Source of the DNA: Clostridia bacterium | Lineage (GTDB): Bacteria > Bacillota > Clostridia > TANB77 > CAG-465 | Direction: 5' to 3' | Length of the DNA: 64,000 bases | Assembly (NCBI GenBank): GCA_026415435.1 | Contig: JAOAHC010000014.1 | Span: forward strand, 1-64,000 | Part shown: piece after piece, positions 31,113 through 63,299 of the stretch | Layout of the letters: each line of letters begins with the position of its first letter | Numbering within the stretch: the stretch's first letter is position 1 | Made by a program: the position numbers and the translations under genes | The notes under the pieces: model-generated | Told to the model about the DNA's origin: nothing | What the model saw: the letters and a program-made list of their open reading frames with translations, nothing else | Databases searched by the model: none

Positions 31113-34100
31113 ATGGCTCAAACAATTAATACTGGTTACAAATCACAAATTACCAGCTCCGCACTCAACGACAAAGTCAATGTGTTACTGGGCCAAGCTA
31201 ATGGTGTATTAAAAGGTTTCAATATTGTTGCTGGAAGCAACAAGAACTTGTCATTAGTTAAGAGCCAAGATACAGTAAATTCATTGATAATAAAAGGTGC
31301 AATAATAACAGAAGATCAAGACTTAAACAATATAATAACAATTCCTGATAACACAAGCGGATCGACAAAAACATATACAGTGTATGCTAAATATGAACAT
31401 GGTGTGGATAGTGCTTGCACGTATGGAGTTATAGAGGGTGATGTGCCTTCTAATATATATTGCAAGCTAGGAGAAGTTATTGTGCCTTATGGATTTAGCT
31501 CAAGTTCACAATGCCAAATCAAAAATGTAGAAAAAGCATTGTCAATGATAAAAAACCAAGTTGAAACACCTGCAAAAATAATAAGAAATATGGTACCTTC
31601 AGGGTTTACTTCGTTGTCGAGCATAGATTACACTTATATGTCTTCAAAGCCAAACGTAATCAAGTTAAGCGGTGAGTCCGTTGCTTACGTTAATGGATAT
31701 AGAATAACAATACCGGCAGATGAAATACAACTGAGTGCTCCTCCATCAAGCGGATCAAGAATTGATCTAGTATTCTTAGAAGTATGGCTTGACAAATTTA
31801 CAGGTTTACCAAACTACAAAGTAAGGGTAGTAGAAAATGCTAGTGTTTTAACTTCTGTAAACGCAAGAGGACAATTAACAAATGAAAGTACAACAAAATT
31901 CGCAAAAAGTAGCACAGATAATGGATTATATACAGCCACTGTAACTGAAGCAAGCGTTGACAACATTGTTTATGCTATACCAATGTTTACTGTAACAAGG
32001 AGAAATAGTGGGGGATATAAAGTAAACAATATAAATGGAGCATTATTATATAATGATAGAGCAGTAGGATATACATTCCAAAGAGAAAGTATAGCTTATT
32101 TAAGTGATGGTACAAAAGTAGGAAATTATGTACCAAGAATAGAAAATGGAGCATTATTGATAGAGGAAGGGACAACGAATCTGATTGGGAAATATTCAAA
32201 CACATTTGATGCTAATCAAACAGTATTCTATCCTCAGGGATTAGCACTCGGTAAAACATGGGCTGACTGTTGGGATAGTTTAGAAAATGCTTATCGTGGT
32301 GGTTATATTGTATGGACATACCAAATAATGTCTAAAAGTCTTGACTTAGGGAATACATTGTCTCAAGATACAGAGTTTACTCTTACTTGGGAGCAAAAGG
32401 GTTATTTATGGTCTGTTATTTTTGAGTATTCTTCAGATGGAAACACATGGACTGCTTGGAATAAAGACACTGATTATACAATTACAAAATTTCATAACTG
32501 TTCATTGGATTATTGGGAAAAGACAGCTTTACCTCACTTTAAAGTAGATGGGTTTAATTTAAGTAGTTCTAATCCAATTACTTATTGGAAAAGAATTGGA
32601 TTCACACTTAAAGTTCCATCAGGAACTCGATATATAAGATTCTACTTTGATTGGTGGGCGGCGAGTAGTAATTATTCTGCAGGAGGTCGCGTAAGAAACA
32701 TTCAATTAGAACAAAAACCTTATCCTACTTCATTTGTGGACGGGACAAGAGCATCAGATGGATTTATAGCACTTAGTGATTTGCAGACACGAAACTATTT
32801 AGGGGAAACATCTGATTGGACTATCGAGGTATCAGTTAAGAAGAATACGGCAGACGCAAATTCTCGTTCTTATAAAATTTTTTCATGCGCAGAAAGTAGT
32901 GGATTTTGTATTGAAAGTTCTTGTTCACCATTAAGAGTGGCTTTTAATGATAATGGAGCATGTAAGTATATACCCTTCGCAACTAATTACCCTCTTGATG
33001 ATTTGCAATGGCATAAAATTGCGGTTGTTCACTCATACAAAACAAAAACAGTTTCGTTATATTTAGATGGGGTATTTCAAAATTCGTTAAATATAACAAA
33101 ATTATATTACAACCCTCAATACAAATATCCATTATTTATAGGTAGTGAAAATAATAATGGTAGTATAAACTATATTTCAAATGTATTAAATGGTCTTATT
33201 TCTGACTTTCACATTTCCAGCATAGCACGTTCAAACTCTGAAATTCAGCAACGTGCAATAAACGGATTTACAGTAGACCAATATACGACTTACTCATTGA
33301 AACCTCAAGGCAGTTTACTTTTACCTACTTCTGGCAATCTTTCTTACCCTAAATCAGTAGATACTAACAATAAGAAAATAACTTTCTATGTGCCTAATAA
33401 TCATTTATCAAAGATAGATAATAAATTTACTGTATTTAAGAATAGTAAGGGAAGTGTGGCAAAGATAGAAAGTATAACTAATAATGATGTACTAACATCA
33501 GTACCTGAATTAACTACTAATAATATGGATTATGATTTTTATCAATTTAATAATAAGAGAGCCGACATAATAGAGGAAACCGATATTAAGGACTTGAGAA
33601 ATACAGTATCTTTAACTGGATTTGATTATAAGTCAATGGCAGAAAATCAGTTTAAAGAAGTAATAATCGGCGGACAAAGAATAACAATAAAAGAGTATAT
33701 AGGAAGATGGAAACAATTCGGAGTTACTGGAACTCCTAAATCTGATAATACTGGATTGAATAATCCTTTTGGAGTAGCAATAGATTCTAACGGATATATT
33801 TATGTGGCAGAATTTTATAACCATAGATTAGTAAAATTAAATCCTGACTTAACTTATAACTCTCAATTCGGAGTTACTGGAACTCCTAAATCTGATAATA
33901 CTGGATTTAATTATCCAGCAGGAATAACAATAGATTCTAACGGATATATTTATGTGGCAGACCGTGCTAACCATCGTTTAGTAAAATTAAATCCTAATTT
34001 AACTTATAATTCTCAATTTGGAATAACAGGAGTAGCTAAATCTGATAATACTGGATTAAATAACCCTAATGCAGCAGCAGTAGATTCTAATGGATATATC

Positions 34101-37100
34101 TATGTAGTAGACATTGGTAACCATCGTTTAGTAAAATTAAATCCTAATTTAACTTATAATTCTCAATTTGGAATAACAGGAGTAGTTAAATCTGATAATA
34201 CTGGATTCAAAATTCCTACATCAGTAGCAGTAGATTCTAATGGATATATTTATGTAGCAGACCATGGTAACCATCGCTTAGTAAAACTAAATCCTAATTT
34301 AACTTATAACTCTCAATTTGGAATAACAGGAACTCCTAAATCTGATAATACTGGGTTGAGTTATCCAGTTGGTGTAGCGGTAGATTCAAATGGATATATC
34401 TATGTTCTCCAAAGGCATAAATTAATGAAACTAAATCCGGACTTAACTTATAATTCAGAATTGTTTAATACAAAAGTTAAGTTTGGATTGACTTTAGGTT
34501 CAACTGACTTGTATGTAGCAATTCAAATTGCTGTAAAAGGAAACGACTTTTATATACCTGATAGATATAACCACAGACTTATAAAAATTACTAACATGCC
34601 TGATGATGTATGGTATGACTATAATACTACTTTTCCAACTGCTTTCTTAGGCGACCAAGATTGTGATGGATTGAAAACTTCTTTCTCTGACGCTCCTTAC
34701 TTTAATTACAATACAGTTTCTGTCCCTACTTCCGACACAATTCCTTCATATGTAACAAGAACAATAGCAGGAAATAACTGGGCAAGTGGGAATACAATAA
34801 AAATAAAAGCTTCAAGAAGTAAGGATAAAATAATGGGAATATTAGACCCTAATAGTGCTAAAGCTAAAATATTAAGTATAAATGGAACAGCAGTATATCT
34901 AAATAATGTCAATGGAATAGCTGTTAATGATACAGTTTCATATTTTGCACCTGATTTAACTTTAGGGGGAACAGCTACTATTTCAGCAGTGGACACAACA
35001 AATAAAACAGTAACACTAAATGTTTCATTGTCAAGCACTTACTTGAATGGATATATATTTGAAACAACTGTCGGAAGTTCCTTACCTTTAGTTCAGTTCT
35101 TTAATAGTTCTACTAAAACTTGGACTACTGTAAATGGTACTTGGACAAATTTAGGAACCAATGAAGCAACATTCACTTTAGGAACAAATGCTTCACTAAC
35201 TAATCAAGATATAAAGATAAGCTATAATATAGTAAGTGCTGGAGGAGAAGGATTAGTATTTACTCCGAGAGAATTTATAGGATGTGAGTCTGATGGGGAG
35301 AGTTTGTGGAAACAATTTGGAATAACAGGAACTCCTAAATCTGATAATACTGGATTTAATTATCCTTTTAGAACAGCAGTAGACTCTAATGGATATATTT
35401 ATGTAGCAGACAATGGTAACCATCGCTTAGTAAAACTAAATCCTGACTTAACTTATAACTCTCAATTCGGAGTTACTGGAACTCCTAAATCTGATAATAC
35501 TGGATTAAATTGTCCAACAGGAATAACAATAGATTCTAACGGATATATTTATGTGGCAGACCGTGCTAACCATCGTTTAGTAAAATTAAACCCTGATTTA
35601 ACTTATAATTCTCAATTTGGAATAACAGGAGTAGCTAAAACTGATAATACTGGATTAAATAACCCTACTGCAGCAGCAGTAGATTCTAATGGATATATCT
35701 ATGTAACAGACCACCTCAATCATCGTTTAGTAAAGCTAAATCCTGATTTAACTTATAACTCTCAATTCGGAGTTACTGGAACTCCTAAATCTGATAATAC
35801 TGGGTTGAGTTATCCAGTTGGTGTAGCGGTAGATTCAAATGGATATATCTATGTTACTGAATACTACAATCATCGCTTAGTAAAAATACACTCTAACTAT
35901 GTAGCTATTACTGATTTATCAAGGAAGACAGTTTCTTCTTTAGCCCCAGTCAATCCTTATTTACTATGGGAAGAAGCTAAATTTTCTAATATTCCTTGTA
36001 GAATATGTGTAGACAAGAATGGATATATTTATGTACCTGAGGGTGATGGTCACAGATTAGTAAAACTAAATCCTAATATGTCTTACAATTCTCAATTTGG
36101 AACAACAGGAGTAGCTAAAACTGATAATACTGGATTGAATAATCCTTTTGGAGCAGCAATAGATTCTAACGGATATATTTATGTGGCAGACCGTGCTAAC
36201 CATCGTTTAGTAAAATTAAATCCTAATTTAACTTATAATTCTCAATTTGGAATAACAGGAGTAGCTAAAACTGATAGTACTGGATTAAATAACCCTACTG
36301 CAGCAGCAGTAGATTCTAATGGATATATCTATGTAACAGACCACCTCAATCATCGTTTAGTAAAGCTAAATCCTGACTTAACTTATAACTCTCAATTCGG
36401 AGTTACTGGAACTCCTAAATCTGATAATACTGGATTTAATGCTCCAAGAGGGGTAGCAATAGATTCTAATGGATATATTTATGTAGTAGACCAAGATAAT
36501 TCTCGTTTAGTAAAACTAAATCCTGAATTAACTTATAATTCTCAATTTGGAATAACAGGAGTAGCTAAATCTGATAATACTGGATTCAAAAATCCTACAT
36601 CAGTAGCAGTAGATTCTAATGGATATATCTATGTAACAGACCACCTCAATCATCGTTTAGTAAAGCTAAATCCTGATTTAACTTATAACTCTCAATTCGG
36701 AGTTACTGGAACTCCTAAATCTGATAATACTGGATTAAATTGTCCAGAAGGAGTAACAGTAGATTCTAATGGATATATTTATATATCTGACCAAAATAAT
36801 CGTGTGGTTAAGATACATCCTAACTACTTGCGTAATCCTGATTTTTCAAAAATCGCTGGACTAAATAAACTAAAACCTAATGTAGCTATTATTTATAAAG
36901 CTGACATTCTTTATCCAGCTGACTTCTCTACTGGAACTTATGATATAGTATGGAAGTCGGATAGAGTTTACTACACAGCAAATGGAAGTTATGATAGTTA
37001 TACTTCAACATTTAGAAATATAGCTAATAAAGTATTGGAAGTTGCAGGATTAGAAAATGTGAATGAAGTTTACCCATTTGAATTATCACAGGCTCAATTA

Positions 37101-37376
37101 AATCTAAAACTACCAACTAACCTATATAGGGCATTTATAGAGGATTACAACCTTGAAAATATGTCTACTATAACAGTAGAAAATGCTTTATCTGTTTTAG
37201 TAAATAAATCACTTGGAGAAACTATACCTTTTATGGGACTACTTCCAATGATAATTAAGAAGGATGGACAATTATATCTATTAGTCAAAGGAATGCTAAC
37301 AAAGAGTAGTTCAATGAACTTTACTTCAAACTTCCAATTAATAGTACCTATAAAAAGAAACCCATTAGTTAAATAA
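31113..37376 (+). CDS. Giant tail fibre with LamG and NHL-repeat propellers
   Basis: A 2087-residue receptor-binding fibre. Residues 1-170 look like a baseplate-anchoring domain. Residues about 559-715 form a LamG/concanavalin-like jelly roll (DWTIEVSVKK...WHKIAVVHSY...VSLYLDGVFQ), probably a glycan binder. From residue 869 to about 1160 and from 1402 to about 1905 come 14 clear NHL units of 50 residues (FGVTGTPKSDN...DSNGYIYVAD..NHRLVKLNP.LTYNSQ) plus at least two degenerate ones, likely six-bladed propellers. The C terminus (about 1920-2087) is unassigned. AAAGGAGG sets the start. Confidence 0.85.
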   Translation: MAQTINTGYKSQITSSALNDKVNVLLGQANGVLKGFNIVAGSNKNLSLVKSQDTVNSLIIKGAIITEDQDLNNIITIPDNTSGSTKTYTVYAKYEHGVDSACTYGVIEGDVPSNIYCKLGEVIVPYGFSSSSQCQIKNVEKALSMIKNQVETPAKIIRNMVPSGFTSLSSIDYTYMSSKPNVIKLSGESVAYVNGYRITIPADEIQLSAPPSSGSRIDLVFLEVWLDKFTGLPNYKVRVVENASVLTSVNARGQLTNESTTKFAKSSTDNGLYTATVTEASVDNIVYAIPMFTVTRRNSGGYKVNNINGALLYNDRAVGYTFQRESIAYLSDGTKVGNYVPRIENGALLIEEGTTNLIGKYSNTFDANQTVFYPQGLALGKTWADCWDSLENAYRGGYIVWTYQIMSKSLDLGNTLSQDTEFTLTWEQKGYLWSVIFEYSSDGNTWTAWNKDTDYTITKFHNCSLDYWEKTALPHFKVDGFNLSSSNPITYWKRIGFTLKVPSGTRYIRFYFDWWAASSNYSAGGRVRNIQLEQKPYPTSFVDGTRASDGFIALSDLQTRNYLGETSDWTIEVSVKKNTADANSRSYKIFSCAESSGFCIESSCSPLRVAFNDNGACKYIPFATNYPLDDLQWHKIAVVHSYKTKTVSLYLDGVFQNSLNITKLYYNPQYKYPLFIGSENNNGSINYISNVLNGLISDFHISSIARSNSEIQQRAINGFTVDQYTTYSLKPQGSLLLPTSGNLSYPKSVDTNNKKITFYVPNNHLSKIDNKFTVFKNSKGSVAKIESITNNDVLTSVPELTTNNMDYDFYQFNNKRADIIEETDIKDLRNTVSLTGFDYKSMAENQFKEVIIGGQRITIKEYIGRWKQFGVTGTPKSDNTGLNNPFGVAIDSNGYIYVAEFYNHRLVKLNPDLTYNSQFGVTGTPKSDNTGFNYPAGITIDSNGYIYVADRANHRLVKLNPNLTYNSQFGITGVAKSDNTGLNNPNAAAVDSNGYIYVVDIGNHRLVKLNPNLTYNSQFGITGVVKSDNTGFKIPTSVAVDSNGYIYVADHGNHRLVKLNPNLTYNSQFGITGTPKSDNTGLSYPVGVAVDSNGYIYVLQRHKLMKLNPDLTYNSELFNTKVKFGLTLGSTDLYVAIQIAVKGNDFYIPDRYNHRLIKITNMPDDVWYDYNTTFPTAFLGDQDCDGLKTSFSDAPYFNYNTVSVPTSDTIPSYVTRTIAGNNWASGNTIKIKASRSKDKIMGILDPNSAKAKILSINGTAVYLNNVNGIAVNDTVSYFAPDLTLGGTATISAVDTTNKTVTLNVSLSSTYLNGYIFETTVGSSLPLVQFFNSSTKTWTTVNGTWTNLGTNEATFTLGTNASLTNQDIKISYNIVSAGGEGLVFTPREFIGCESDGESLWKQFGITGTPKSDNTGFNYPFRTAVDSNGYIYVADNGNHRLVKLNPDLTYNSQFGVTGTPKSDNTGLNCPTGITIDSNGYIYVADRANHRLVKLNPDLTYNSQFGITGVAKTDNTGLNNPTAAAVDSNGYIYVTDHLNHRLVKLNPDLTYNSQFGVTGTPKSDNTGLSYPVGVAVDSNGYIYVTEYYNHRLVKIHSNYVAITDLSRKTVSSLAPVNPYLLWEEAKFSNIPCRICVDKNGYIYVPEGDGHRLVKLNPNMSYNSQFGTTGVAKTDNTGLNNPFGAAIDSNGYIYVADRANHRLVKLNPNLTYNSQFGITGVAKTDSTGLNNPTAAAVDSNGYIYVTDHLNHRLVKLNPDLTYNSQFGVTGTPKSDNTGFNAPRGVAIDSNGYIYVVDQDNSRLVKLNPELTYNSQFGITGVAKSDNTGFKNPTSVAVDSNGYIYVTDHLNHRLVKLNPDLTYNSQFGVTGTPKSDNTGLNCPEGVTVDSNGYIYISDQNNRVVKIHPNYLRNPDFSKIAGLNKLKPNVAIIYKADILYPADFSTGTYDIVWKSDRVYYTANGSYDSYTSTFRNIANKVLEVAGLENVNEVYPFELSQAQLNLKLPTNLYRAFIEDYNLENMSTITVENALSVLVNKSLGETIPFMGLLPMIIKKDGQLYLLVKGMLTKSSSMNFTSNFQLIVPIKRNPLVK
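33717..34466 (+). repeat. NHL coding repeats, block 1
   Basis: Five 150-bp in-frame units starting at 33717, 33867, 34017, 34167 and 34317. The last unit diverges, and a degenerate sixth blade follows to about 34600. Confidence 0.9.
35316..35915 (+). repeat. NHL coding repeats, block 2
   Basis: Four 150-bp units starting at 35316, 35466, 35616 and 35766, continuing the same consensus after a spacer domain. Confidence 0.9.
36096..36830 (+). repeat. NHL coding repeats, block 3
   Basis: Five 150-bp units starting at 36096, 36246, 36396, 36546 and 36696, the last truncated. The unit at 36246 differs from that at 35616 at only two positions that I can see. Confidence 0.9.
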
Positions 37377-50531: not shown

Positions 50532-50834
50532 TTATTCCTTTAGCAATATCTGAAAATCATACCAGTTATCAAATAGCAAGATTTGGGCTTCATAACAAAC
50601 AGTTCCAAAATAACCATGGGCGCATTTATGTGCTGATAGTACCTGATGAACCGTTTGAGGTTCTATTTTTGAAATAATATCTGGGCCATATATAAAATCA
50701 TAAGCTTCTTTTTCAGCAATTAATTTAGCTGTCTTTACAATATTGTTTACAGAAGGAACAATATTATCTTTTCTTAACATTTCTATATAAACTCTCATAA
50801 TTAGCTTCTCTATTATGCTTTCATTTTCATTCAT
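50532..50834 (-). CDS. Clamp-motif family protein 6
   Basis: A 100-residue helical protein of the local six-member family. The N-terminal half (LIMRVYIEMLRKDNIVPSVN) matches the family pattern Y...L...N.(I/F)P. The motif AQILLF (Gln84) lies 16 residues from the end and resembles bacterial clamp-binding peptides (QLxLF). The start overlaps the previous stop as ATGA, indicating translational coupling. Confidence 0.55.
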   Translation of the reverse strand: MNENESIIEKLIMRVYIEMLRKDNIVPSVNNIVKTAKLIAEKEAYDFIYGPDIISKIEPQTVHQVLSAHKCAHGYFGTVCYEAQILLFDNWYDFQILLKE

Positions 50835-51148
50835 ACAATCATCTCCTCAAACATAATTATTTGAGAGTTATTTTTATGCTCTCCAAATGAGTTTGTAAAT
50901 TCTATGCGAAATTCATTGAGTATTATATCCTCTAACATCTCATTTATCTCGTATTTATTAATCATAAATCCTTTAAAAGTAAAAAATATTATTTTACTAT
51001 CAATTATGACATCAATTAAATTATCTTCGAACTCGTAAAAATCTATTGGCTCTCCAACAAACGCACCTTCACATCTTCTGTATGCTTCTCTTATAAATAT
51101 ATATATGTCGTTAGTTCCATCATATCCACTCATTATTAAGTTGCTCAT
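50831..51148 (-). CDS. Clamp-motif family protein 5
   Basis: A 105-residue acidic protein. The C terminus carries SQIIMFEEMIV (Gln96), nine residues from the end, matching the motif in its neighbours. The rest (FYEFEDNLIDVIIDSKIIFF) differs from the larger members, so it may share only the motif. AAAGGTGAT precedes the ATG. Confidence 0.5.
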   Translation of the reverse strand: MSNLIMSGYDGTNDIYIFIREAYRRCEGAFVGEPIDFYEFEDNLIDVIIDSKIIFFTFKGFMINKYEINEMLEDIILNEFRIEFTNSFGEHKNNSQIIMFEEMIV

Positions 51149-51154
51149 ATTAAA

Positions 51155-51796
51155 TCACCTTTTAAACAAGACTCTTGTTTTTATAGCTTCCCCTTGATGG
51201 TCTTTATCAGAAAAGAAATCTGTGCAGCTTGTTATTTGATGTATGTGAATTTCTGGAAACATAAATATTTGACAATCATTTTTCACTACTGAATATTCTA
51301 TACTGCTAAAATCATAATATATCTCATGTTCTGAAAATAATTCATAATATAATTTATTTACATCAAGAATTGAAGATATATAATCTGGAACATCTAAAAA
51401 ATAATCATAGTACAGATCGCTATAGTATGAGTTAGCTAATTCCATTATATTTTCGTCTATATAAAAATCAATATTTTCTGGATCATCTTCTGCATACAGT
51501 TCTAATAATTGTTCATGGAAATATACATAAAAATCTTCAGTAGCTATTTCAGTAATTATCTCCAAATTATAATAAAATACTTCATCTAGAATGTGGTTCA
51601 TCAAGGCATCCTTATATTTAAATGTTGCTATTTCTTTTTTATAATGCTCTAATACAAAGTTTTTATGGTGTTCAAAATTATGTTTGTTTGCTGGGCTTAT
51701 TAACTGCAAAATTAATTCTTCAATTCTTTGTTGATAGTCATTTTTGTAATCATAATGTGTTAAATGAGCGTTGTTGCTAGCTACTGTTAAATCCAT
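51155..51796 (-). CDS. Clamp-motif family protein 4
   Basis: A 213-residue acidic, Tyr-rich helical protein. It shares with proteins 2 and 3 the order ISP.N, a Y...L/I helix, YNLEI..EIA..DFY, a YYYD/YYDYF segment, VNKLYYE, and the conserved NDCQIFMF (Gln176). These repeats show common ancestry. AAGGAGGTG sets the start. Confidence 0.6.
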   Translation of the reverse strand: MDLTVASNNAHLTHYDYKNDYQQRIEELILQLISPANKHNFEHHKNFVLEHYKKEIATFKYKDALMNHILDEVFYYNLEIITEIATEDFYVYFHEQLLELYAEDDPENIDFYIDENIMELANSYYSDLYYDYFLDVPDYISSILDVNKLYYELFSEHEIYYDFSSIEYSVVKNDCQIFMFPEIHIHQITSCTDFFSDKDHQGEAIKTRVLFKR

Positions 51797-51813
51797 TTTA
51801 CTAAAACACCTCC

Positions 51814-52437
51814 TTAATTATTAACAATAGATATATTCAAAACTTCACTTTCTCTAATTTCATTTAATGCAAAGCTCATTTGTTCTAAATGAACATCTGA
51901 AAACATTAATATTTGACAATCATTTTTATAAATTTCAACATTGTTATCTGGTCTAGAAAAATATTGATACAAAATATGATCAGAAGAACATTCATAACAT
52001 AATTTTTTTTCATCTAACACATCTGTTATAAACTCATCATTTTCTGCAAAGAAATCATAATAATAACTAGACAATAAGTTGTCTGCTATTTGAGCTATGC
52101 AGTATTCTATATCACTACTGCTTAAATTATATTCTGTATTTTTATAATGATTTGTATAAAAGTCTATCTCTGCAATTTTGTGCATTATGTTCCAATTATA
52201 ATTCATAACTTGTATTGATATTTCATCAATAGAAGGAATTTTATTGTTTTTTATAAGTGTATTGTGATAAAACATAATTATTAGTTTTTCAGCCTCATAC
52301 ATAAATGGATGATTATATGGAGATATTATATCTTTTAATAGCATGTCTTTCTTTTCTTCAAAAGGAATATCAAATAAATCCACTGATCTTTCTTCGTTTA
52401 TTATTCCTCTTATTACTAATTCTTTCGAGTTAACCAT
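51814..52437 (-). CDS. Clamp-motif family protein 3
   Basis: A 207-residue paralogue of its neighbours: 'ISPYNHPF', 'NKIPSIDEIS', YNWNIMHKIAEIDFY, 'SSYYYDFFAEND', 'EKKLCYE', and NDCQILMF with Gln175. A GGCGGTGA site precedes the ATG. Acidic and helical; no catalytic motif visible. Confidence 0.6.
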   Translation of the reverse strand: MVNSKELVIRGIINEERSVDLFDIPFEEKKDMLLKDIISPYNHPFMYEAEKLIIMFYHNTLIKNNKIPSIDEISIQVMNYNWNIMHKIAEIDFYTNHYKNTEYNLSSSDIEYCIAQIADNLLSSYYYDFFAENDEFITDVLDEKKLCYECSSDHILYQYFSRPDNNVEIYKNDCQILMFSDVHLEQMSFALNEIRESEVLNISIVNN

Positions 52438-52454
52438 CTTTTCACCGCCATTTC

Positions 52455-53075
52455 CTATGTTGTTACTAGTGAATTTCTATTGTTGTTGAAAAAATAGAGT
52501 TCTCCAGAATTTGTTGTAAAACCATATTCTAACATTTCATTAAACATTATTGTTTGACAATCATTAATAATAATATCTGTGTTTTTCTCCAATGCTGACA
52601 TCTTATCAATCATTAACTCTGCTTCAATATAATCAAATAATGTATCATCTCCATCTGAATAATATGTTAATTTATTTTCGTTTAAAATTGCTGCAACCGC
52701 ACATTCCATGTTGGCACAATCATATTGATAAAACATCTCTGCAATACTATCTGCTTCTTCTCCAATCATTTCTTCATATTTTTCTGGTGTTAAATACATT
52801 ACATCATTATTTTCGGAAATGTTTATAAATGCTATTTGAGTAAATATTTCATAATTATATGTTTCAACTTCACTCAAAACTTCACAAAAATACGGAAATC
52901 TATTGTGAAGTTTTATCAATTTAAAATAAAATTTCACAATATTTTCTTCGAGTCTTATTTGATCTTCTACACTATATGGTTTAGATAAAAGAATTTCATT
53001 ATACAAATCACTCACGCTATTTGTTGGTTTTTTCCAATATTCTAAAATCATTAAATCATATTGATATTGATTCAT
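52455..53075 (-). CDS. Clamp-motif family protein 2
   Basis: A 206-residue paralogue. AGGAGGTG supports ATG 53075 rather than the GTG at 53084. It keeps 'LHNRFPYFCEV', YNYEIFTQIAFINIS, 'NENKLTYY', and NDCQTIMFNEM (Gln174). Acidic, helical, cytoplasmic. Confidence 0.6.
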   Translation of the reverse strand: MNQYQYDLMILEYWKKPTNSVSDLYNEILLSKPYSVEDQIRLEENIVKFYFKLIKLHNRFPYFCEVLSEVETYNYEIFTQIAFINISENNDVMYLTPEKYEEMIGEEADSIAEMFYQYDCANMECAVAAILNENKLTYYSDGDDTLFDYIEAELMIDKMSALEKNTDIIINDCQTIMFNEMLEYGFTTNSGELYFFNNNRNSLVTT

Positions 53076-53087
53076 TATAAACACCTC

Positions 53088-53588
53088 CTAGTAACACATT
53101 TCATAAAACATTATTATTTGTGGTTTATACATACTATCTAAATCTTTTTTTGATGGCTTTAAAGATAATTCGGATAATCCTTTTATAAATGGCAATCCTT
53201 GCTCTAACAAAATTTGTGTTACAATATCTGATAATCCATACGATATACCATGAATATAATTGCCAAGAATTATATCTATTTCGTCAGACGTATACTGATA
53301 ACTACTATAAAAATCTCTTATTATCTCCATATTTTCTTCATCTATAAAATCAGCTATTTCATAGACATCTGGAATATATCCATACTCATTCTTATATGCA
53401 AGCATTCTATCTTGATAAATTTCAAGAACTCTTTCTTTTAATCTTGCCATATTATATGGAGTGCACATATATCTATCTAATAGCATTAAAAAACTATCCT
53501 GTACCATTGTAGGAACAGGATAGTTGACAGGACTAATAGCTTTTCCTATTATTTGTATTAATGCAAGTCTATCCTCAAATTCGTTCAT
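53088..53588 (-). CDS. Clamp-motif family protein 1
   Basis: A 166-residue family member. AAAGGAGATGATAC supports ATG 53588; the in-frame ATG at 53636 lies inside the clamp gene. It has 'ISPVNYPV', 'KNEYGYIPDVYEIADFI', 'ENMEIIRDFYSSY', and ends KPQIIMFYEMCY with Gln157, nine residues from the terminus. Confidence 0.6.
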   Translation of the reverse strand: MNEFEDRLALIQIIGKAISPVNYPVPTMVQDSFLMLLDRYMCTPYNMARLKERVLEIYQDRMLAYKNEYGYIPDVYEIADFIDEENMEIIRDFYSSYQYTSDEIDIILGNYIHGISYGLSDIVTQILLEQGLPFIKGLSELSLKPSKKDLDSMYKPQIIMFYEMCY

Positions 53589-53592
53589 TGTA

Positions 53593-54513
53593 TCATCTCC
53601 TTTGTATTCCATAAGATATATCAAGTGGTGCAACAAATATTGTTATTTGTAAATCTTCATCCATTTCTTTTATATTTCTGAACATTACAAAATCTTTAAA
53701 TTCTTTTCCAAAGTGCATTTCAACGAATTTGCTTTTTGATGCCAACAACACTTTTGATAGGTCATAAAGCATTGTTGCATCTATGTGTATTGGTGGCATG
53801 TAGAAATTTTCAACAGGTGCAATTGCGTTTGAACATAAAATCATGTCTTGTGGTATCCCTATCATTTTATGAACGCTTTCAAGATTTTTTGGATCAAAAC
53901 CAGCTTCAGAATAAACAATACCCATTCTAACCTTGCCATATGGTTCAATAACATTTGCATAGATTGCTTCGTCTGCCTCTCTTAACTTACATCTGTATGG
54001 TGTGTCTAGTTTTACAAATTGTTCAGGAATAAATGACATATTGTCAATCCATACTGGCTTTGTCATTCCTGGTGCTTTAAATTCAAGTCTTTGTCCATTG
54101 TGTCTAAATCTTAAGAAGAAATCACCATCTTCTTTGAATGTTTGTGCAAATACAACTCTTGATTTCTTTCTTTTGTCTTGTGGTAATTCACCAAGTCTGT
54201 TTATAAAATTTGTTATAGGAAATGCTACACTTCCAGTAAATTCAAAGCTAGATATTCTTGCTATTACATCATCAAGAGATATTCTCCATGGTATTTTTGT
54301 ATATTTGTTTTCAAAAAAGCTAAAGAACTCTCCTTCTGGCTTTATATCTTTTAGTCCTTCAACAACTATACAGAATGTTCCTGATACTACATATGCTTTG
54401 TTATCCCTGAAAGCAACTCCCCAATAGCTGTTTGCTGGTGGATTATATTCTACAGCTGGTCTTAATAAAAAGTCTAAAATTTGTGGTTCTTGAATAACAA
54501 TTTTGTTTTCCAT
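53593..54513 (-). CDS. Putative DNA sliding clamp
   Basis: A 306-residue beta-rich protein. Three repeated beta-alpha-beta segments, a central 'PITNFINRLGELPQD' helix, 'IDATMLYDLSKVLLAS' near the end, and a C-terminal 'DLQITIFVAPLDISYG' strand pattern resemble DnaN-like clamps. As a ring around DNA it would hold the phage DnaE. It heads an operon with six proteins carrying clamp-binding-like motifs, which supports the call. AAGGAGGAG precedes the ATG. Confidence 0.5.
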   Translation of the reverse strand: MENKIVIQEPQILDFLLRPAVEYNPPANSYWGVAFRDNKAYVVSGTFCIVVEGLKDIKPEGEFFSFFENKYTKIPWRISLDDVIARISSFEFTGSVAFPITNFINRLGELPQDKRKKSRVVFAQTFKEDGDFFLRFRHNGQRLEFKAPGMTKPVWIDNMSFIPEQFVKLDTPYRCKLREADEAIYANVIEPYGKVRMGIVYSEAGFDPKNLESVHKMIGIPQDMILCSNAIAPVENFYMPPIHIDATMLYDLSKVLLASKSKFVEMHFGKEFKDFVMFRNIKEMDEDLQITIFVAPLDISYGIQRR

Positions 54514-54547: not shown

Positions 54548-54579
54548 AAAGAGAAAGTTTAGCTATAAACTTTCTCTTT
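54548..54579 (-). terminator. Leader hairpin/attenuator before clamp gene
   Basis: A perfect 14-bp stem (54548-54561 with 54566-54579), 4-nt loop, followed on the minus strand by ATTATTTTTTTT. It lies between motif copy d and the clamp gene, so it may act as an attenuator. Confidence 0.75.
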
Positions 54580-54587
54580 TCCCTTTT

Positions 54588-54606
54588 CTTTTATATCTTA
54601 TACTAA
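54588..54606 (-). promoter_or_regulatory. Promoter-like motif, copy d (variant)
   Basis: TTAGTATAAGATATAAAAG on the minus strand, a variant of the motif, after the ncRNA hairpin and before the attenuator and clamp gene. Confidence 0.5.
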
Positions 54607-54619
54607 AAAAAATGTATTT

Positions 54620-54788
54620 TTTAAACCAAGAAATCACTGATATCAGTGATTTCTTGGTTTGTGCACCTTAATACAAAACATTGTAATCAAGGTTTGCAGT
54701 GCGACTGATTTATCCGTCAGCCTAGCGGACATACATTAACCAACCCAGGCACATGCGGTTCTGGGTGGGGTTGCCCCACTTCTATTTT
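54620..54788 (-). ncRNA. Candidate structured non-coding RNA
   Basis: A stretch of about 165 nt with no good ORF and a much higher GC content (about half G+C over 54700-54780) than the surrounding sequence. On the minus strand it starts just after motif copy e and ends in a 38-bp palindrome. Predicted helices: GTGGGG/CCCCAC (54765-54779), CCCAG/CTGGG (54744-54765), GGCTGA/TCAGTC (54703-54722), and an 11-bp hairpin with one bulge (54665-54691). Bases TGTCCG (54731-54726) can pair with the loop of the third helix, forming a pseudoknot. Two helices hold G-U pairs on this strand that would be A-C mismatches on the other. I do not recognise the family. Confidence 0.65.
54623..54660 (-). terminator. 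38-bp palindrome ending the ncRNA
   Basis: A perfect dyad (54623-54641 with 54642-54660) centred on GATATC. On the minus strand it is followed by A6, then T8 after a short gap, so it is probably the 3' hairpin of the ncRNA. Confidence 0.7.
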
Positions 54789-56255: not shown

Positions 56256-56912
56256 TTATTTTATAACTTCTACTGTGCTGATTTTATTATCATCCATTGT
56301 AACATATATTTTCGAATCTGTCATTGAAGCCAGATATTCATTGTGGGTAACTATAATTATTTGTCTTCCAAAATCTTGCGATATATTCTTAATAAATTCA
56401 GAAATCATAGGTATATATTCTTTACTAACCATTTTAAAAGGTTCATCCATTATTATTGGACCATCTATAAATGGTTCATATGCTTGCATTACCACAATTC
56501 TTAAAGCTATACTAACTATGTCAATAACACCTCCGCCATTTGCCTCCATAGGATCTGTTTCTACTCCACTTACAGTATTTCTTATTTTTACTTCAGCATA
56601 TGGCTTTCTTATTCCTTTACCTTCATACAAGTATATTTTCATTTCATAGTCAGCCCCTAAAGAGTATTGAAGTGCAGCAGTTCCTAATTCTTCAAGTCTT
56701 GTTCTTGCTATTTCTCTTTGTTTTGATGACATTTTTTGAAGAACAGCACTACACTTTTCAAGTTCTGTTATTTTTAAATCCTCTAGTTGTCTTTCTAGAT
56801 CTTCTCTTTTTTTAGTAAGCTCTGATTCTTTGGATCTTTTTATGATATATTCATCATTTACTTTCTTAAGTTGTAGTCCTATCTCGTTCACTTTTTGATC
56901 TATCATTAACAT
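56256..56912 (-). CDS. Rad50/SbcC-like ATPase, C-terminal half
   Basis: A 218-residue protein with a short N-terminal coiled coil and the C-lobe of an SMC/Rad50 ATPase: a degenerate signature (EANGGGVIDIVSIALRI), Walker B with Asp156-Glu157 (GPIIMDEPF), and H-loop His190 (IIIVTHNEYLA). It lacks Walker A. The matching N-lobe is the separate gene at 61989-63299. The start overlaps the Myb-repeat gene by 47 nt, after a GGTGGAGGG site. Probably a recombination or end-processing ATPase. Confidence 0.75.
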   Translation of the reverse strand: MLMIDQKVNEIGLQLKKVNDEYIIKRSKESELTKKREDLERQLEDLKITELEKCSAVLQKMSSKQREIARTRLEELGTAALQYSLGADYEMKIYLYEGKGIRKPYAEVKIRNTVSGVETDPMEANGGGVIDIVSIALRIVVMQAYEPFIDGPIIMDEPFKMVSKEYIPMISEFIKNISQDFGRQIIIVTHNEYLASMTDSKIYVTMDDNKISTVEVIK

Positions 56913-58116
56913 AAACAGCGTCCCTCCACCATAACATATAATTTATTTTTTCTCTTTTTTCTTCTTCTGTCCTGTAATAAAATGTAAATCTTGTTCCAAC
57001 ATATTTTTTTATTGCAAATTTCCATATGCTTAACTTTTTCATTTTAGCAACAATAGATGCCTTGCTTCGCTTTAATATTTTTTTTATTTTGGTCCAATGC
57101 AATGTATTGTAATTTTCTAGTAAAAATGACACTTCCCAATCCTGCCATTTTTTAGATGTATTTTTTTGTTTTAAATGCTTGAATGATATCTTGTATGATT
57201 TTATATTGTGCATTGATGCATATGTTGATACAGAACCAATTGTTCTGCCAAGTTCAGCAGCTATTACTGCATTTGTTTTTCTACCAAAGTTATCTTTTAA
57301 ATATTTTACTTGATTTGATGTCCAAGGCATTAATTTTCCACGTCTATATAATCTCATTGTATGTATTTTTCCGCTTACAGATCTTTTTGTCCTTCCAAGT
57401 ATTTTAGATATCTCGTCGATAGTTTTATCTGTTTCAAGATAAAGATATTTTAAAGTATTTTCTTCTTCTTCTGACCATATCTTATTTCTTTTTACACCAA
57501 GATAATTTGCCTTCTTTATTATAGCCATTTCTGATCTACCAAGTTTTTCAGATATTAACGAAATATTTTCTGACGGATAGTATTTTTTAATATATTCTTC
57601 CTCTTCTTTTGTCCATCGCTTTAAAAAGATGTTTTTTTCTTTTTCTTTTTTCTTTTTTCTTTTTTCTTTTTTCAAGTTAAGTTTAGAAGCTTTTGTTCTT
57701 ATGGATTGCATACTTCTGTTTAAATAATCAGACAATTCAATATTTGATTTTATAGTATAATTTTTTATAAGATAATTTTCTTCATCTATTGTCCAAGGTC
57801 TATTATTACTTTCTGATAATTCAATTTTATGTGCTTTTTCAAATATTGATTTTTTGCTTCTTTTAAGGTGTTTTGCTATATCTTCCACAGGGATTTTGTT
57901 ATAGTTGTTTTTTAAATAATCTAATTCATATTCTGTCCAAGGTTTGCCTTTCTTCCACAATTGTTGATTTCTTTTCAGTCCTAATTCGCTAGCCTTATTT
58001 TTTATTGATTTCCATGTTCTATTTAATCTTTTTATAATCTTTTCTCTGTCTTCATTTTCAAAATTGCAAATCAAATAGTCTAAATCTTCGTTTGTCCATA
58101 AAACAACCTTTCCCAT
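56866..58116 (-). CDS. Protein of seven tandem Myb-like HTH repeats
   Basis: A 416-residue basic protein of seven similar units of about 50 residues. Each starts at a conserved Trp (7, 60, 108, 168, 214, 265, 324) in a (P/K)WT..E..(Y/F)L pattern and ends in a recognition-like helix (LGRS..SI..KA..L.L). This is a Myb/SANT-like or GcrA-like helix-turn-helix fold. The C terminus is basic. Seven linked DNA-binding units suggest wrapping of an extended site, as for a nucleoid-like or origin-binding protein. Target unknown. GGGGGTG sets the start. Confidence 0.75.
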   Translation of the reverse strand: MGKVVLWTNEDLDYLICNFENEDREKIIKRLNRTWKSIKNKASELGLKRNQQLWKKGKPWTEYELDYLKNNYNKIPVEDIAKHLKRSKKSIFEKAHKIELSESNNRPWTIDEENYLIKNYTIKSNIELSDYLNRSMQSIRTKASKLNLKKEKRKKKKEKEKNIFLKRWTKEEEEYIKKYYPSENISLISEKLGRSEMAIIKKANYLGVKRNKIWSEEEENTLKYLYLETDKTIDEISKILGRTKRSVSGKIHTMRLYRRGKLMPWTSNQVKYLKDNFGRKTNAVIAAELGRTIGSVSTYASMHNIKSYKISFKHLKQKNTSKKWQDWEVSFLLENYNTLHWTKIKKILKRSKASIVAKMKKLSIWKFAIKKYVGTRFTFYYRTEEEKREKINYMLWWRDAVYVNDRSKSERDRTTT

Positions 58117-58147: not shown

Positions 58148-58169
58148 GGGGTAATTTTTTAATTACCCC
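58148..58169 (-). terminator. Intrinsic terminator
   Basis: A 9-bp stem GGGGTAATT/AATTACCCC with a 4-nt loop, then AAAATTTATTTT on the minus strand; weak T tract. It overlaps the stop of the 58163-58411 gene. Confidence 0.6.
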
Positions 58170-58411
58170 TGATTATTTGTCCATTCATCAAGTTTAGATT
58201 TCGCATTTTGATAAAGTTCTTCTATCTTATTTTCCATCTCTTGAATAGCATCATCTGTTTTTTCAGGATCTATGCCAAGTTCTCGCAACTCATTTTCATA
58301 GTTCTCAATATTTTTAATAACTTCATTATAAGTCGCTTTTGCTTGTATTATTTTGTCTCTAAGGTCAGTAACTTCTTTCTTAAGTGCTAAAATTTCTCTT
58401 TCTGTTCTCAT
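58163..58411 (-). CDS. Small coiled-coil protein
   Basis: An 82-residue coiled-coil protein (EILALKKEVTDLRDKI...ENYENELRELG) after AAGGAGGAG, just downstream of the polymerase gene. It may be a replication accessory or dimerisation factor. Not recognised. Confidence 0.5.
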   Translation of the reverse strand: MRTEREILALKKEVTDLRDKIIQAKATYNEVIKNIENYENELRELGIDPEKTDDAIQEMENKIEELYQNAKSKLDEWTNNQG

Positions 58412-58430: not shown

Positions 58431-61400
58431 TTACCAAGATAGTATTTTTGAATTAAATAAATTCATATCGAATTTATTTAGATTTACCCAATAGTTTTTA
58501 TTTAACAGAACTCTTATATTATCATGCTCTATATATATAGGTGTGTTTCCTTGCACTAAATCATTGTTTTCTATATATTTCATAACATCTACACTTTGTT
58601 CAGGGTTAGCAAGCTTAATTATAAGTCTATCAACTATTTCATCTTCGACAGGTAAAACATTTTCACATATTATTGTTGGTGGTTCTTCTGATTCTATTTT
58701 TAAATATCCTTCAATTTTATAAATATTATCTGGCTTTAATTTATCTTTTATATCTTCGTATGTTTGAGGCCATATAATCATTCTTGCTATTCCATTCAAA
58801 TCTTCTACAACTACGTTTGCCATTAGAGTCTTTTTCTTGGTTACTCTCGGCACTATTTCGTTAATAATTCCAATAAACTTAACTCTTTGCCTATCTCTTA
58901 CATTTGATGCAATCATTATTGCACCAGTACCTTCGTCAACTTCGTAATCGATGTCAGATGTTTTAAAGTTAGAATATGTTTTAATTGAATAAGCATATTT
59001 ATAAAGCGGATTTCCTGTTAAATAAAGCCCTAGATATTTTTTCTCTAACCTCAACATAACTTCTTCTGGCAATTCTTTGAGCTTTGGTATTAAATCATCT
59101 ATTTTAAGTCTTTCTTCAAAATCAAAACTATCGATTTTTCCGCTTTTAATTGCTCTTGTTCTTGCTTGTTTTACCTTTGCCAACCTATCTGTTATATCAT
59201 CTAATGCAGCTAAGATTTGAGATTTGACAACGCCAAGGCTGTTAAAAGCACCAATTGATACGAGGGCTTCTAGAGTTTGTTTGTTTATTACATCAGCAGT
59301 TCTGATTAAAAAATCTGAAAATGACTCAAATTTTCTCTCATCTCTTATTGGCTTAATAGCTTTCAATACGTTTTCGGAAGCATGCTTAACATTTAATGAA
59401 TACGCTATTTTGCCATTTGGTAATGGAATAAACTTATCTACACTTAAGTTTATGTCTGGTTCTATAATTTCTATTCCAAGTTCCCTTCTGCAATAATTTA
59501 TATAGTTTGCTATTCTGCTTTGATTACCCTGAACAGAATTCATTAATGCAGCCATGAACTCAACAGGATAGTAATAAGCAAGCCAAGCTGTAACGTAAGC
59601 TACATATGCGTAGGCAGCAGCATGGGATTTGTTAAAACAATATGAAGCAAAATCCTCCATCAAATCAAAAAATTGCTCCAGTTCCTCTTTTGAGTGTCCA
59701 AGTGCCAATCCGCCAGGTATCGCATGAGGATACTTTACTATTCTCCCTTCTTCATCAACATCCTCTTCTTTTCTTCCATATATGAACCATTGCTTATGAA
59801 GTGGAATAAGTTTCTTTTTCTTTTTACTTATAACTTTTCTAAATCCATCAGAGTCTGATTTATCGTATCCAGCAATTTCAACGACAGTACGCATACATTG
59901 TTCTTGATAACACAAAACACCATATGTTTCTTTTAAAATAGGCTCTAGTTTAGGAAAAGGATATATTATTTTGTTTGGGTTGCGTTTATTGTATAAAAAT
60001 CGAGGTATTTCTTTCATTGGTCCAGGTCTATATAAAGAAATTCCAGCTATTATGTCTTCTATGCTGTCTGGTTTAAGTTCCTCCATAAACTTTGTCATTC
60101 CTGCACCTTCAAGTTGGAATATACCAACTGTTTTCCCATCTTTAATCAATTTAAGTGGTGCAAGATCCTCAACCTTATACAATTGATCAAGGTCAATATG
60201 TTTGTTGTGATTTTTTTCAATAAACTCAATACATTCTCCAATAACGCCCAATGTCTTTAAACCAAGAAAGTCCATTTTTAAAAGACCTAATTCCTCAAGT
60301 ATATTTTTATCGTATTGAGCAACTATAGCACCGTCATTATTCCATAAAGGAACATACTTTGTTAAACCCTGCTTATCTGTTATCAGTACACCCGCTGCGT
60401 GCGTTGATGTGTTTAATGGCAATCCTTCAAGAGCCATTGATACGTCAAGCAAATACCTTATTTTTTCATCTGTATCATATTTTCTTTTTAATTCAGGGTT
60501 TAATTCAAGTGCCTTAAATATTGTTATGTCTGGTTCAGCTGGTATCATCTTCGCTATTTGGTCGTATAATGAATATTCATAATTTATTGCTTTTCCAACC
60601 TGTCTTATTACCGATCTTGCAGCCATTGTTCCGAATGTTATTATTTGACAAACTGAATTTCTGCCATACTTTTCTATAACATAATCTATTACTTCTTGTC
60701 TCCTGGTATCTTGGAAGTCGCTATCTACATCAGGCATTGATACTCTGCTTGGATCAAGGAACCTTTCAAATATAAGATTGTATTTTATTGGATCAATTTT
60801 TGTTACACCTAAAGCATAGAGTAATATCGAACCTGCTCCACTTCCTCTTCCTGGACCAACAAGTATTGGTTTCCACCCTGCAGGAGAAGGATCACCATAG
60901 TTTTTCGAACCTTCTTTGCAAAATCTAAAAAAGTCCCAAACTATAAGGAAATAGTTTACGTATCCCATTTTGTTAACAACAGAAAGTTCGTATTCGGCTC
61001 TTTCTATTATTTCTTGCGGCAATGGTGTTCCATATAATTTTTCTAATCCTTGATACGATAACATCCTAAGAAAATCAAAGTTATCCCCATTAAAATCTTT
61101 TGGGATTTCAAATGGCGGTAATTTGTTAACACCAAACTCAAAACTAACATGGCATCTCTCGGCAATTTTAACTGTATTTTCAAGAGCTTCTGGCACATAT
61201 TCAAATAAATTCCACATTTCTTCAGCTGATTTAACATAAAATTCATCTGTCGGATATCTCTTTCTTTTTTCATCATCAACAGTTGTTTTTGCTTGAATTA
61301 CCATAAGTATATCGTGTTCTTTATAATTATCTCTAGTTATATAATGACAATCATTTGTAACCACAAGTGGTATTCCAGTCTCTTCACTTAGTCTTATAAG

Positions 61401-61970
61401 TTGTGTGTTAACCATAACTTGTTCAGGCATTCTATGATCTTGAAGCTCTAAAAAGAAATTTCCTCTACCAAATATCTCATCGTATTCTAATGCTTCTCTT
61501 TTTGCACCCTCATAATCATTATTTAATAGCATTTGTTGAACAGATCCACCAAGGCAAGCTGATAGTGCTATCAATCCTTTTGAATGCTCTCTTAATTTTC
61601 TTTTATCTGTTCTTGGTCTGTAATAAAAACCATTTATTGCAGCATCACTAGCTATTTCTAATAAATTTTGGTATCCTTCGTTATTTTCACAAAGAAGTAC
61701 TAAGTGATAATTTGCATTGTCTATATGTGCTTCTTTAACAGTATTAAATCTTGGTGCTACATATGTTTCCATTCCTGGTATCACTTCAATTCCATCAGCT
61801 TTTAATTCTTTGTAAAAATTTACAACACCAAACATTACTCCATGATCTGTAATAGCTACTTTTTTCATGCCAAGTTCCTTTAATCTCTTGCTTAATTCCT
61901 TAGGTTTTATCATAGCATCAGATAAAGAGTATTGTGTGTGTAAATGCAGATGCACAAAGTCTCTATTCAT
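58431..61970 (-). CDS. dnaE: DNA polymerase III alpha subunit, DnaE type
   Basis: A 1179-residue bacterial-type replicative polymerase. An N-terminal PHP domain (FVHLHLHTQYS, ITDHG) is followed by the C-family palm with Asp414, Asp416 and Asp418 (MPDVDSDF), the 'GPGRGSGAGS' and 'STHAAGVLI' motifs, and a helix-hairpin-helix and OB-fold C terminus. No exonuclease insertion is visible, so it is DnaE, not PolC. The usual clamp-binding site (Q..LF after the HhH region) reads SGKIDSF here. It should replicate phage DNA with the primase-helicase and clamp. GGGGGAG precedes the ATG. Confidence 0.95.
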   Translation of the reverse strand: MNRDFVHLHLHTQYSLSDAMIKPKELSKRLKELGMKKVAITDHGVMFGVVNFYKELKADGIEVIPGMETYVAPRFNTVKEAHIDNANYHLVLLCENNEGYQNLLEIASDAAINGFYYRPRTDKRKLREHSKGLIALSACLGGSVQQMLLNNDYEGAKREALEYDEIFGRGNFFLELQDHRMPEQVMVNTQLIRLSEETGIPLVVTNDCHYITRDNYKEHDILMVIQAKTTVDDEKRKRYPTDEFYVKSAEEMWNLFEYVPEALENTVKIAERCHVSFEFGVNKLPPFEIPKDFNGDNFDFLRMLSYQGLEKLYGTPLPQEIIERAEYELSVVNKMGYVNYFLIVWDFFRFCKEGSKNYGDPSPAGWKPILVGPGRGSGAGSILLYALGVTKIDPIKYNLIFERFLDPSRVSMPDVDSDFQDTRRQEVIDYVIEKYGRNSVCQIITFGTMAARSVIRQVGKAINYEYSLYDQIAKMIPAEPDITIFKALELNPELKRKYDTDEKIRYLLDVSMALEGLPLNTSTHAAGVLITDKQGLTKYVPLWNNDGAIVAQYDKNILEELGLLKMDFLGLKTLGVIGECIEFIEKNHNKHIDLDQLYKVEDLAPLKLIKDGKTVGIFQLEGAGMTKFMEELKPDSIEDIIAGISLYRPGPMKEIPRFLYNKRNPNKIIYPFPKLEPILKETYGVLCYQEQCMRTVVEIAGYDKSDSDGFRKVISKKKKKLIPLHKQWFIYGRKEEDVDEEGRIVKYPHAIPGGLALGHSKEELEQFFDLMEDFASYCFNKSHAAAYAYVAYVTAWLAYYYPVEFMAALMNSVQGNQSRIANYINYCRRELGIEIIEPDINLSVDKFIPLPNGKIAYSLNVKHASENVLKAIKPIRDERKFESFSDFLIRTADVINKQTLEALVSIGAFNSLGVVKSQILAALDDITDRLAKVKQARTRAIKSGKIDSFDFEERLKIDDLIPKLKELPEEVMLRLEKKYLGLYLTGNPLYKYAYSIKTYSNFKTSDIDYEVDEGTGAIMIASNVRDRQRVKFIGIINEIVPRVTKKKTLMANVVVEDLNGIARMIIWPQTYEDIKDKLKPDNIYKIEGYLKIESEEPPTIICENVLPVEDEIVDRLIIKLANPEQSVDVMKYIENNDLVQGNTPIYIEHDNIRVLLNKNYWVNLNKFDMNLFNSKILSW

Positions 61971-61988: not shown

Positions 61989-63299
61989 TTACAAAATGTC
62001 TTTTATATTTCTTAATTTTTCCTCCGTCATCTCTGACATGCAAACAGGGCATTTTTGATTGTCTAATAAAGCTTGTTTGTATTCATTCAGCTTATTATTG
62101 TATTGATTATCTAGGTCTTTTATAATTTTATCCCCATTTGCTTTTCTGTTGTTTTGTTCGTCATACTTTTTCTTAATCTGTTTTATTGTCTCAATATCAA
62201 TAAGTGTTTTTTGGCAATAAAACAAGTTTTCTATGACTTCTTCTATTTCTTTTGTATCAATCATATATTTTTGCAAATTATTGGCTTTAACTTTTTCAGC
62301 TATTAACTTTTTGTTTGTGGCTGAAACTTTAGATGTTTTTGACACAAGCTGCAACATTTCATCCACCTCACTCGCAACTTTATCAAGGTCTTCAATTTTA
62401 ACAGTTTTAATCAAATCTTCTATGCTGTTCTTTTTAGTTATCTCATCACTCAATTGTTTATTTAGTCTATTTATCGTATTTAGCTTTGATTGCAGTACGG
62501 ATATGAGTTCAACCACTGTAACAAGCTCATTGATTTCAGTTTCCTTTGATATTATTGACTCTAGCAAGCTCTTTTGCTTTATCAGTGTTAAGATTTTTGT
62601 TTTTGCAGAATCTATTTTTCTAAGTTTGGATTGTAATTCTGTCATTTTATCTAGATTTTTCTGAATTGAATTTATATCTTTCTCCATTTTACCTAGATTT
62701 CTAAGTTCTTTAAGTTGTTGTTTTGTGTCTGATAGTTCTGCTTTTATTGTTTTAGCTATTGCTTTGTTTTCTCTAATTTCAAGAGAAGTATTTTTAATTG
62801 CTAAATCAACAATATCTGTGTTTGCTAATTTTCCTATTATAACAGCTTTTGTTTGAGAGCTTTCTGCTAAAAAGAACGGTTGACTCATTTGCGTACATAG
62901 ATTAAGAGATTGCTTTTCTCCAAAAAAATCAACTTCTTTCATTTGGTGAAAATCTAACACTTCTTGCACTGGACCAACACCAAAAGCTTCAAGATGAATT
63001 ACTGTCCCATCACTATTTATTAAATCATAATAATTGTCTTTATTGCTTCTATATCTTTTTATAGATGTTCCATCATTAAAATATAATTCTACATAACATG
63101 TTGTTTGTCCATGTCGTATAAAGTCTGTCCCTGATGGAGTGTTATATAAGCACCACTTAATACCCCTTATTATAGCTGATTTACCTTTATCTGTTGGTCC
63201 AACAATCGCTGTAAAATCAGCAAAAGGTATTTCGGAGTGTTCGTGGCTTTGAAAATTATGCAAAATAATTTTTTCTATCTTTTTCAACACACTCACCAT
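61989..63299 (-). CDS. Rad50/SbcC-like ATPase, N-terminal half with zinc hook
   Basis: A 436-residue protein with the N-lobe of a Rad50/SbcC ATPase: Walker A GPTDKGKS (34-41) after IILHNFQSHEHSEIPF. A long coiled coil (about 170-410) ends in a zinc hook CPVC (Cys417, Cys420) close to the C terminus. There is no Walker B; that lobe is encoded at 56256-56912. Together they would make one ATPase split at the hook. Start ATG 63299 has its site immediately upstream; a TTG at 63287 is an alternative with better spacing. Confidence 0.75.
   Translation of the reverse strand: MVSVLKKIEKIILHNFQSHEHSEIPFADFTAIVGPTDKGKSAIIRGIKWCLYNTPSGTDFIRHGQTTCYVELYFNDGTSIKRYRSNKDNYYDLINSDGTVIHLEAFGVGPVQEVLDFHQMKEVDFFGEKQSLNLCTQMSQPFFLAESSQTKAVIIGKLANTDIVDLAIKNTSLEIRENKAIAKTIKAELSDTKQQLKELRNLGKMEKDINSIQKNLDKMTELQSKLRKIDSAKTKILTLIKQKSLLESIISKETEINELVTVVELISVLQSKLNTINRLNKQLSDEITKKNSIEDLIKTVKIEDLDKVASEVDEMLQLVSKTSKVSATNKKLIAEKVKANNLQKYMIDTKEIEEVIENLFYCQKTLIDIETIKQIKKKYDEQNNRKANGDKIIKDLDNQYNNKLNEYKQALLDNQKCPVCMSEMTEEKLRNIKDIL

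Follow-up and report, generated by a model that had tools for sequence, protein, structure and literature searches.

What does a phage protein do that is dominated by seven tandem Myb/SANT-like helix-turn-helix (HTH) repeats and is encoded beside a DnaE-type DNA polymerase? We address this question for a 416-aa protein (P0001) encoded in the window, i.e., the whole stretch of 64,000 nucleotides analyzed here.

The array gene lies between DnaE and one half of an SbcC-like ATPase

The contig to which the window belongs is 77.7 kb long and was binned in a 1.45-Mb genome, the putative host. The contig encodes a tail sheath, a baseplate wedge, a tail-associated lysin-type protein, a helicase, a DnaE polymerase, and a primase, and, past the window, a calcineurin-like phosphoesterase, an OB/HD-domain protein, and a thymidine kinase. 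Judged from these genes, the contig comes from a tailed phage whose gene set is that of a contractile tail, and the original prediction that the array belongs to a phage holds. No near DNA match to the contig was found among 50,697 phage records.

The genes around the array follow the order SbcC N-terminal half, DnaE, 82-aa coil, array, and SbcC C-terminal half. DnaE and the Rad50-like halves, which had been named as the context of the array, do lie next to it, and the first 47 bp of the SbcC C-terminal half are shared with the array ORF:

56256..56912, minus strand: SbcC/Rad50-like C-terminal half (PHROG 15167, 2.4e-44; SbcC-like PHROG 77, 2.8e-07)
56866..58116, minus strand: 416-aa multi-HTH array protein (ORF, repeats, AlphaFold model)
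58163..58411, minus strand: 82-aa coiled-coil-like protein, encoded between the DnaE and array genes (53% identity to its counterpart in the ortholog locus)
58431..61970, minus strand: DnaE-type DNA polymerase III alpha subunit (family profile matches)
61989..63299, minus strand: SbcC/Rad50-like N-terminal half, ending near a CPVC hook (Pfam AAA_23, 5.5e-17; weak Rad50_zn_hook; PHROG 16465)

The SbcC/Rad50-like ATPase is encoded in two parts (56256-56912 and 61989-63299) with DnaE and other genes between them, a split that L016, L007, and also Bacillus phage vB_BboS-125 share. Elsewhere in the window, on the structural side, 150-bp units are repeated at 33609-36887 within a 2087-aa ORF (31113-37376). 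By eye, the minus strand at 50532-53636 encodes a run of small acidic proteins, several of which carry an NDCQI.MF-like motif close to their C-terminal end, and similar genes are present in L007 and L014.

The protein contains seven HTH units and a C-terminal tail

The array ORF has its start codon at 58116 and its stop codon at 56868-56866, is preceded on its 5' side by an RBS-like GGGGGTG, and encodes a protein with a pI of 9.9. Each unit has one Trp anchor, at residues 7, 60, 108, 168, 214, 265, and 324, which are exactly the positions originally predicted. The repeats were tested with a profile that was derived solely from those in L019, a protein encoded by a Bacteroidota MAG, and then run on the array protein. 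This profile recovers all seven units, the weakest being unit 7 at 5.3 bits, and it scores the whole protein at 164 bits, compared with a peak of 9.4 in 1000 shuffles. The pairwise score between repeats averages 57, compared with a mean of 22 and a maximum of 25 for shuffled repeats. The seven-repeat array is real and far above chance, and the tandem Myb/SANT-like repeats proposed at the outset are recovered both by the L019-only profile and in the AlphaFold2 model described below. The units, with their unit profile scores and modeled helices, and the tail are as follows:

57967..58098, minus strand: HTH unit 1 (residues 7-50), 64.3 bits, helices 9-18, 24-31, 35-44
57811..57942, minus strand: HTH unit 2 (residues 59-102), 67.3 bits, helices 62-71, 77-84, 88-97
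57667..57798, minus strand: HTH unit 3 (residues 107-150), 66.1 bits, helices 110-119, 125-132, 136-145
57484..57618, minus strand: HTH unit 4 (residues 167-211), 61.5 bits, helices 170-179, 185-192, 196-205
57340..57477, minus strand: HTH unit 5 (residues 214-259), GcrA-like, 55.5 bits, Pfam GcrA 4.3e-07, modeled helices spanning 216-253
57196..57327, minus strand: HTH unit 6 (residues 264-307), 61.4 bits, helices 267-276, 282-289, 293-302
57019..57150, minus strand: HTH unit 7 (residues 323-366), 57.4 bits, helices 326-335, 341-348, 352-373 (unit to about 361)
56869..57018, minus strand: C-terminal tail of ~50 aa (residues 367-416) with FxYxTEEEKRxK, common to the array protein and its ortholog in a second phage contig (G095)

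The array dominates the protein, in line with the early description of a protein containing little else, which nevertheless overlooked the C-terminal tail shared with the ortholog. A family search with the tail returned no family. As for recent duplication of units, no near-identical DNA repeat lies within the array ORF among the repeat families listed.

Predicted fold and DNA-binding face of the units

The AlphaFold2 model, built on an alignment of eight sequences (the array protein and seven relatives), has a mean pLDDT of 75 and shows seven units of three helices each. A prediction made without an alignment was unusable (pLDDT of 47) and was replaced by this one. Because the pTM is low (0.27), the relative arrangement of the units is not predicted. 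The third helix is basic in six of the seven units and neutral in unit 6 (net charges of +2, +3, +3, +1, +3, 0, and +4 for units 1 through 7), and the majority of the inter-unit linkers are basic. The HTH units and the basic recognition face, without which the original prediction would have failed, are thus both present in the model.

Unit 5 is matched by Pfam GcrA above the family cut-off, and it overlays on the DNA-binding domain of GcrA, solved with methylated DNA, with a Z of 8.3 and an rmsd of 0.9 Å over 44 residues at 39% identity. The full-length GcrA equivalog model is not reached by the protein (17.5 bits, cut-off 280). A search of solved structures with the unit profile found c-Myb (4.3e-07) and GcrA. 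The reading of the repeats as tandem HTH units of the Myb/SANT/GcrA type is supported. No PDB relative of the whole protein is significant; the top Foldseek match is Reb1 on its Ter site, a multi-Myb DNA complex, with an insignificant E of 0.026 and a TM of 0.12. The looser structural matches are Reb1-Ter, c-Myb on DNA, and SNAPc, each of which puts several Myb units on DNA; most VIA-align rows for the protein span residues 166-259 only. Given the likeness to GcrA and to these multi-unit Myb proteins (c-Myb, Reb1-Ter, and SNAPc), our analysis indicates that the array protein very likely binds double-stranded DNA.

The locus is kept in a diverged phage

Direct search of viral contigs found no close relatives of the array protein, and an ortholog was reached via the primase. 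The primase (58% identical) located a 160-kb viral contig, G095, in which the genes follow the same order (SbcC N-terminal half, DnaE, ~80-aa coil, array, SbcC C-terminal half) and the array ORF overlaps that of the SbcC C-terminal half by 23 bp. The ortholog, of 302 aa, aligns collinearly with units 3-7 and the tail FxYxTEEEKRxK, and it contains four units by the unit profile, two of them weak, or about five by eye. Identity between G095 and the window is 27% for the array, compared with 57% for DnaE, 58% for the primase, and 48% for the SbcC C-terminal half, showing that the array diverges faster than its neighbors. At the syntenic place of the array, L007 carries a ThyX gene and L017 encodes a 174-aa protein without a Pfam match. 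No copy of the array was found in 94 other genomes related to the bin.

In L017 (639-4575), DnaE is encoded by two ORFs ~290 bp apart, split between SMP and DIDSD, with no Rfam intron match at gathering score.

Spread of the repeat unit

At E ≤ 1e-4, the repeat profile matches 15 of 299 sampled genomes of the phylum (the window's own included), and apart from the array protein, no listed reading frame in these genomes exceeds three matches. An array of this length had been called unusual, which is correct for host genomes, but the Bacteroidota protein L019 has six units, and a 415-aa gut-phage protein (L029) has six by profile and seven by eye. Proteins of Listeria phages carry three to four units, phage Goslar encodes small unit-bearing proteins, and a LAGLIDADG protein on a phage contig (L045) carries four such repeats. 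In Escherichia phage Goslar (L031, 1769-4506), six consecutive small ORFs, with one or two HTH units each, form an array gene by gene.

Comparison with the D5-like family

The best family match of the array protein is PHROG 323, “transcriptional regulator, D5-like” (1.8e-57, in four separate stretches), whose members include T5 D5 (1.2e-71) and gp65 of Listeria phage B054 (4.4e-61). Since the LAGLIDADG protein L045 matches PHROG 323 at 3.6e-53, the match is one at the repeat level and is not family-specific. Weak matches to PHROG 323 occur in 11 of 14 control genomes, and we rejected it as a specific genome marker on these grounds.

The array protein is 34% identical to gp65 over 159 aa (9e-19). 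Its comparison with T5 D5 by hhalign covers 36 columns with a probability of 2.4%, which is near noise, and the direct score is 11.0 bits, with the best shuffle at 9.8. The T5 record annotates D5 as DNA-binding and required for replication and late transcription, with its gene between the ligase and helicase genes, and in Enterococcus phage BC611, the gene of a short relative is flanked by those of the primase and of a replication protein. D5 of the T5-like phage φR2-01 is a major virion-associated protein (PMC8624392); our literature search on T5 D5 biochemistry returned nothing beyond virion-proteome mention.

A promoter-like motif on the replication side

Six exact copies of GTATAAGTAATAAAA are present in the contig, all on the minus strand (null about 0.07):

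Window 46025, 46380, 49739, and 54785, minus strand: exact copies of GTATAAGTAATAAAA
Contig 65022 and 77140, minus strand: exact copies of GTATAAGTAATAAAA

The copies fall within the gaps that separate replication-side genes or at the borders of these gaps, and the motif looks like a promoter element of the lineage. We considered the motif as a target of the array and rejected it, because two exact copies occur in the related phage G096 and five in the related phage G148, neither of which has an array that we could find at the syntenic place, and none occurs in the array-bearing G095.

A non-coding stretch on the minus strand (window 54575-54784) is bounded on one side by a copy of GTATAAGTAATAAAA and on the other by a strong hairpin, after which comes a T-rich run. 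With a folding z of -5.05 relative to shuffles, it looks like a small RNA gene; Rfam returned no family at gathering score on the window.

Possible roles of the array protein

The roles first suggested for the array, namely origin binding, genome packing, or transcription silencing, are each conjectural. We give about an even chance to the explanation that the array protein is a D5-like, multi-contact binder of double-stranded DNA that is made with the replication genes. This placement draws on the PHROG 323 match, the annotation of T5 D5, and the BC611 relative near the primase. Because the family match is at the repeat level and the comparison with T5 D5 is near noise, we infer that the protein works like D5 and stop short of calling it a D5. 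Seven Myb/GcrA-type HTH units, carried on short, mostly basic linkers together with a small conserved tail, would dock successively along DNA, so that affinity is high and the footprint long; once bound, the protein may aid phage DNA replication, the switch from early to late transcription, or both. We infer the DNA binding, the length of the footprint, and the role in replication or late transcription from the relatives and the fold. The position of the array between DnaE and the SbcC C-terminal half, in the window as in G095, counts in favor of a D5-like role, as do the overlay of unit 5 on GcrA, the c-Myb and GcrA matches of the unit profile, the pI, and the basic third helices and linkers. 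What counts against it, besides the repeat-level match and the near-noise comparison, is that two relatives have other genes at this position and that T5 D5 is shorter and does not have the tail.

The protein could instead be a site-specific transcription regulator that recognizes a single long operator, or a few of them, in phage or host and activates or represses transcription there, rather than coating DNA in general or serving replication. The nearest solved structures are those of GcrA and c-Myb, both of which function in transcription, and the annotation as transcriptional regulator is attached to PHROG 323 and to several phage relatives, although by similarity only. Jumbo phages such as Bacillus phage G encode Myb-type transcription factors (PMC7824862), which we count in favor of a regulator. 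However, the distribution of the contig's repeated promoter-like element does not follow that of the array, and we regard this explanation as unlikely. Less probable again is that the protein represents the DNA-recognition part of a mobile (homing) endonuclease from which the nuclease was lost or in which it was never present, or a domesticated version of such an enzyme, at a recurrent insertion place between the SbcC halves. The gene at this place does vary among relatives, and in Bacillus phage vB_BboS-125, a protein encoded between the SbcC halves weakly matches AP2 and HNH. In addition, repeats of the same type are fused to LAGLIDADG in L045 and are found in Mycobacterium phage Thibault in proteins annotated as HNH endonucleases, between two genes annotated as DNA methylases. 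The match of the array protein to the HNH family PHROG 1891 falls on the repeats, and Pfam detects no nuclease domain (HNH, GIY-YIG, or LAGLIDADG) in this protein or in the G095 ortholog (P0004). Moreover, a second, diverged phage preserves the gene order, the overlap with the SbcC C-terminal half, and the C-terminal tail, a conservation that speaks for a retained function.

It is improbable, in our estimate, that the protein binds a replication origin or forms a fork barrier, tagging a defined location on the phage genome for DnaE-dependent replication. The array does lie directly downstream of DnaE and the short coil gene in two phages, and Reb1-Ter is the top, if insignificant, Foldseek match, but the repeat list of the window shows no standout cluster of iterated intergenic sites, and relatives replicate with other genes at the array's place. 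A long shot is that the array acts as a modular sequence reader, a natural counterpart of TAL-effector-like readers, in which the divergent third helix of each unit would read a few bp and phages would add or drop units (G095 has about five, the window seven) to alter the length and identity of the target. Myb/GcrA-type arrays of five to seven units do occur in phages, but for none of them did we find a solved structure or an established DNA site.

Since it is an almost pure array with a syntenic ortholog that differs in unit number, the protein provides a clean case for asking whether the number of units sets the length of the binding site and what D5-like proteins do outside T5.

Relation to known systems

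The likeness to GcrA of Caulobacter lies in the sequence of unit 5 and in the fold overlay; the solved DNA-binding domain of GcrA is one unit, whereas the array protein has seven. With the eukaryotic multi-repeat Myb proteins (c-Myb, Reb1, and SNAPc), it has in common tandem three-helix units with Trp anchors, such that the unit is common but the whole protein is not. The phage homing endonucleases (LAGLIDADG in L045, HNH in Thibault) carry HTH repeats of the same type, but the array protein is without their nuclease domain. L019 and L029 are, like the array protein, near-pure tandem arrays of this type of unit, but they come from other organisms and neighborhoods, and in the alignment the C-terminal tail is absent from L019. 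PHROG 323 likewise comprises phage proteins built from small HTH units in a chain. Among them, T5 D5 shares the replication-region setting but, at 255 aa, has two or three very weak matches to the unit and does not have the tail, and Listeria phage B054 gp65 has 226 aa and four units (the last weak), compared with 416 aa and seven units here. We class the array protein as a long, new representative of the phage multi-HTH proteins, a known and little-studied kind.
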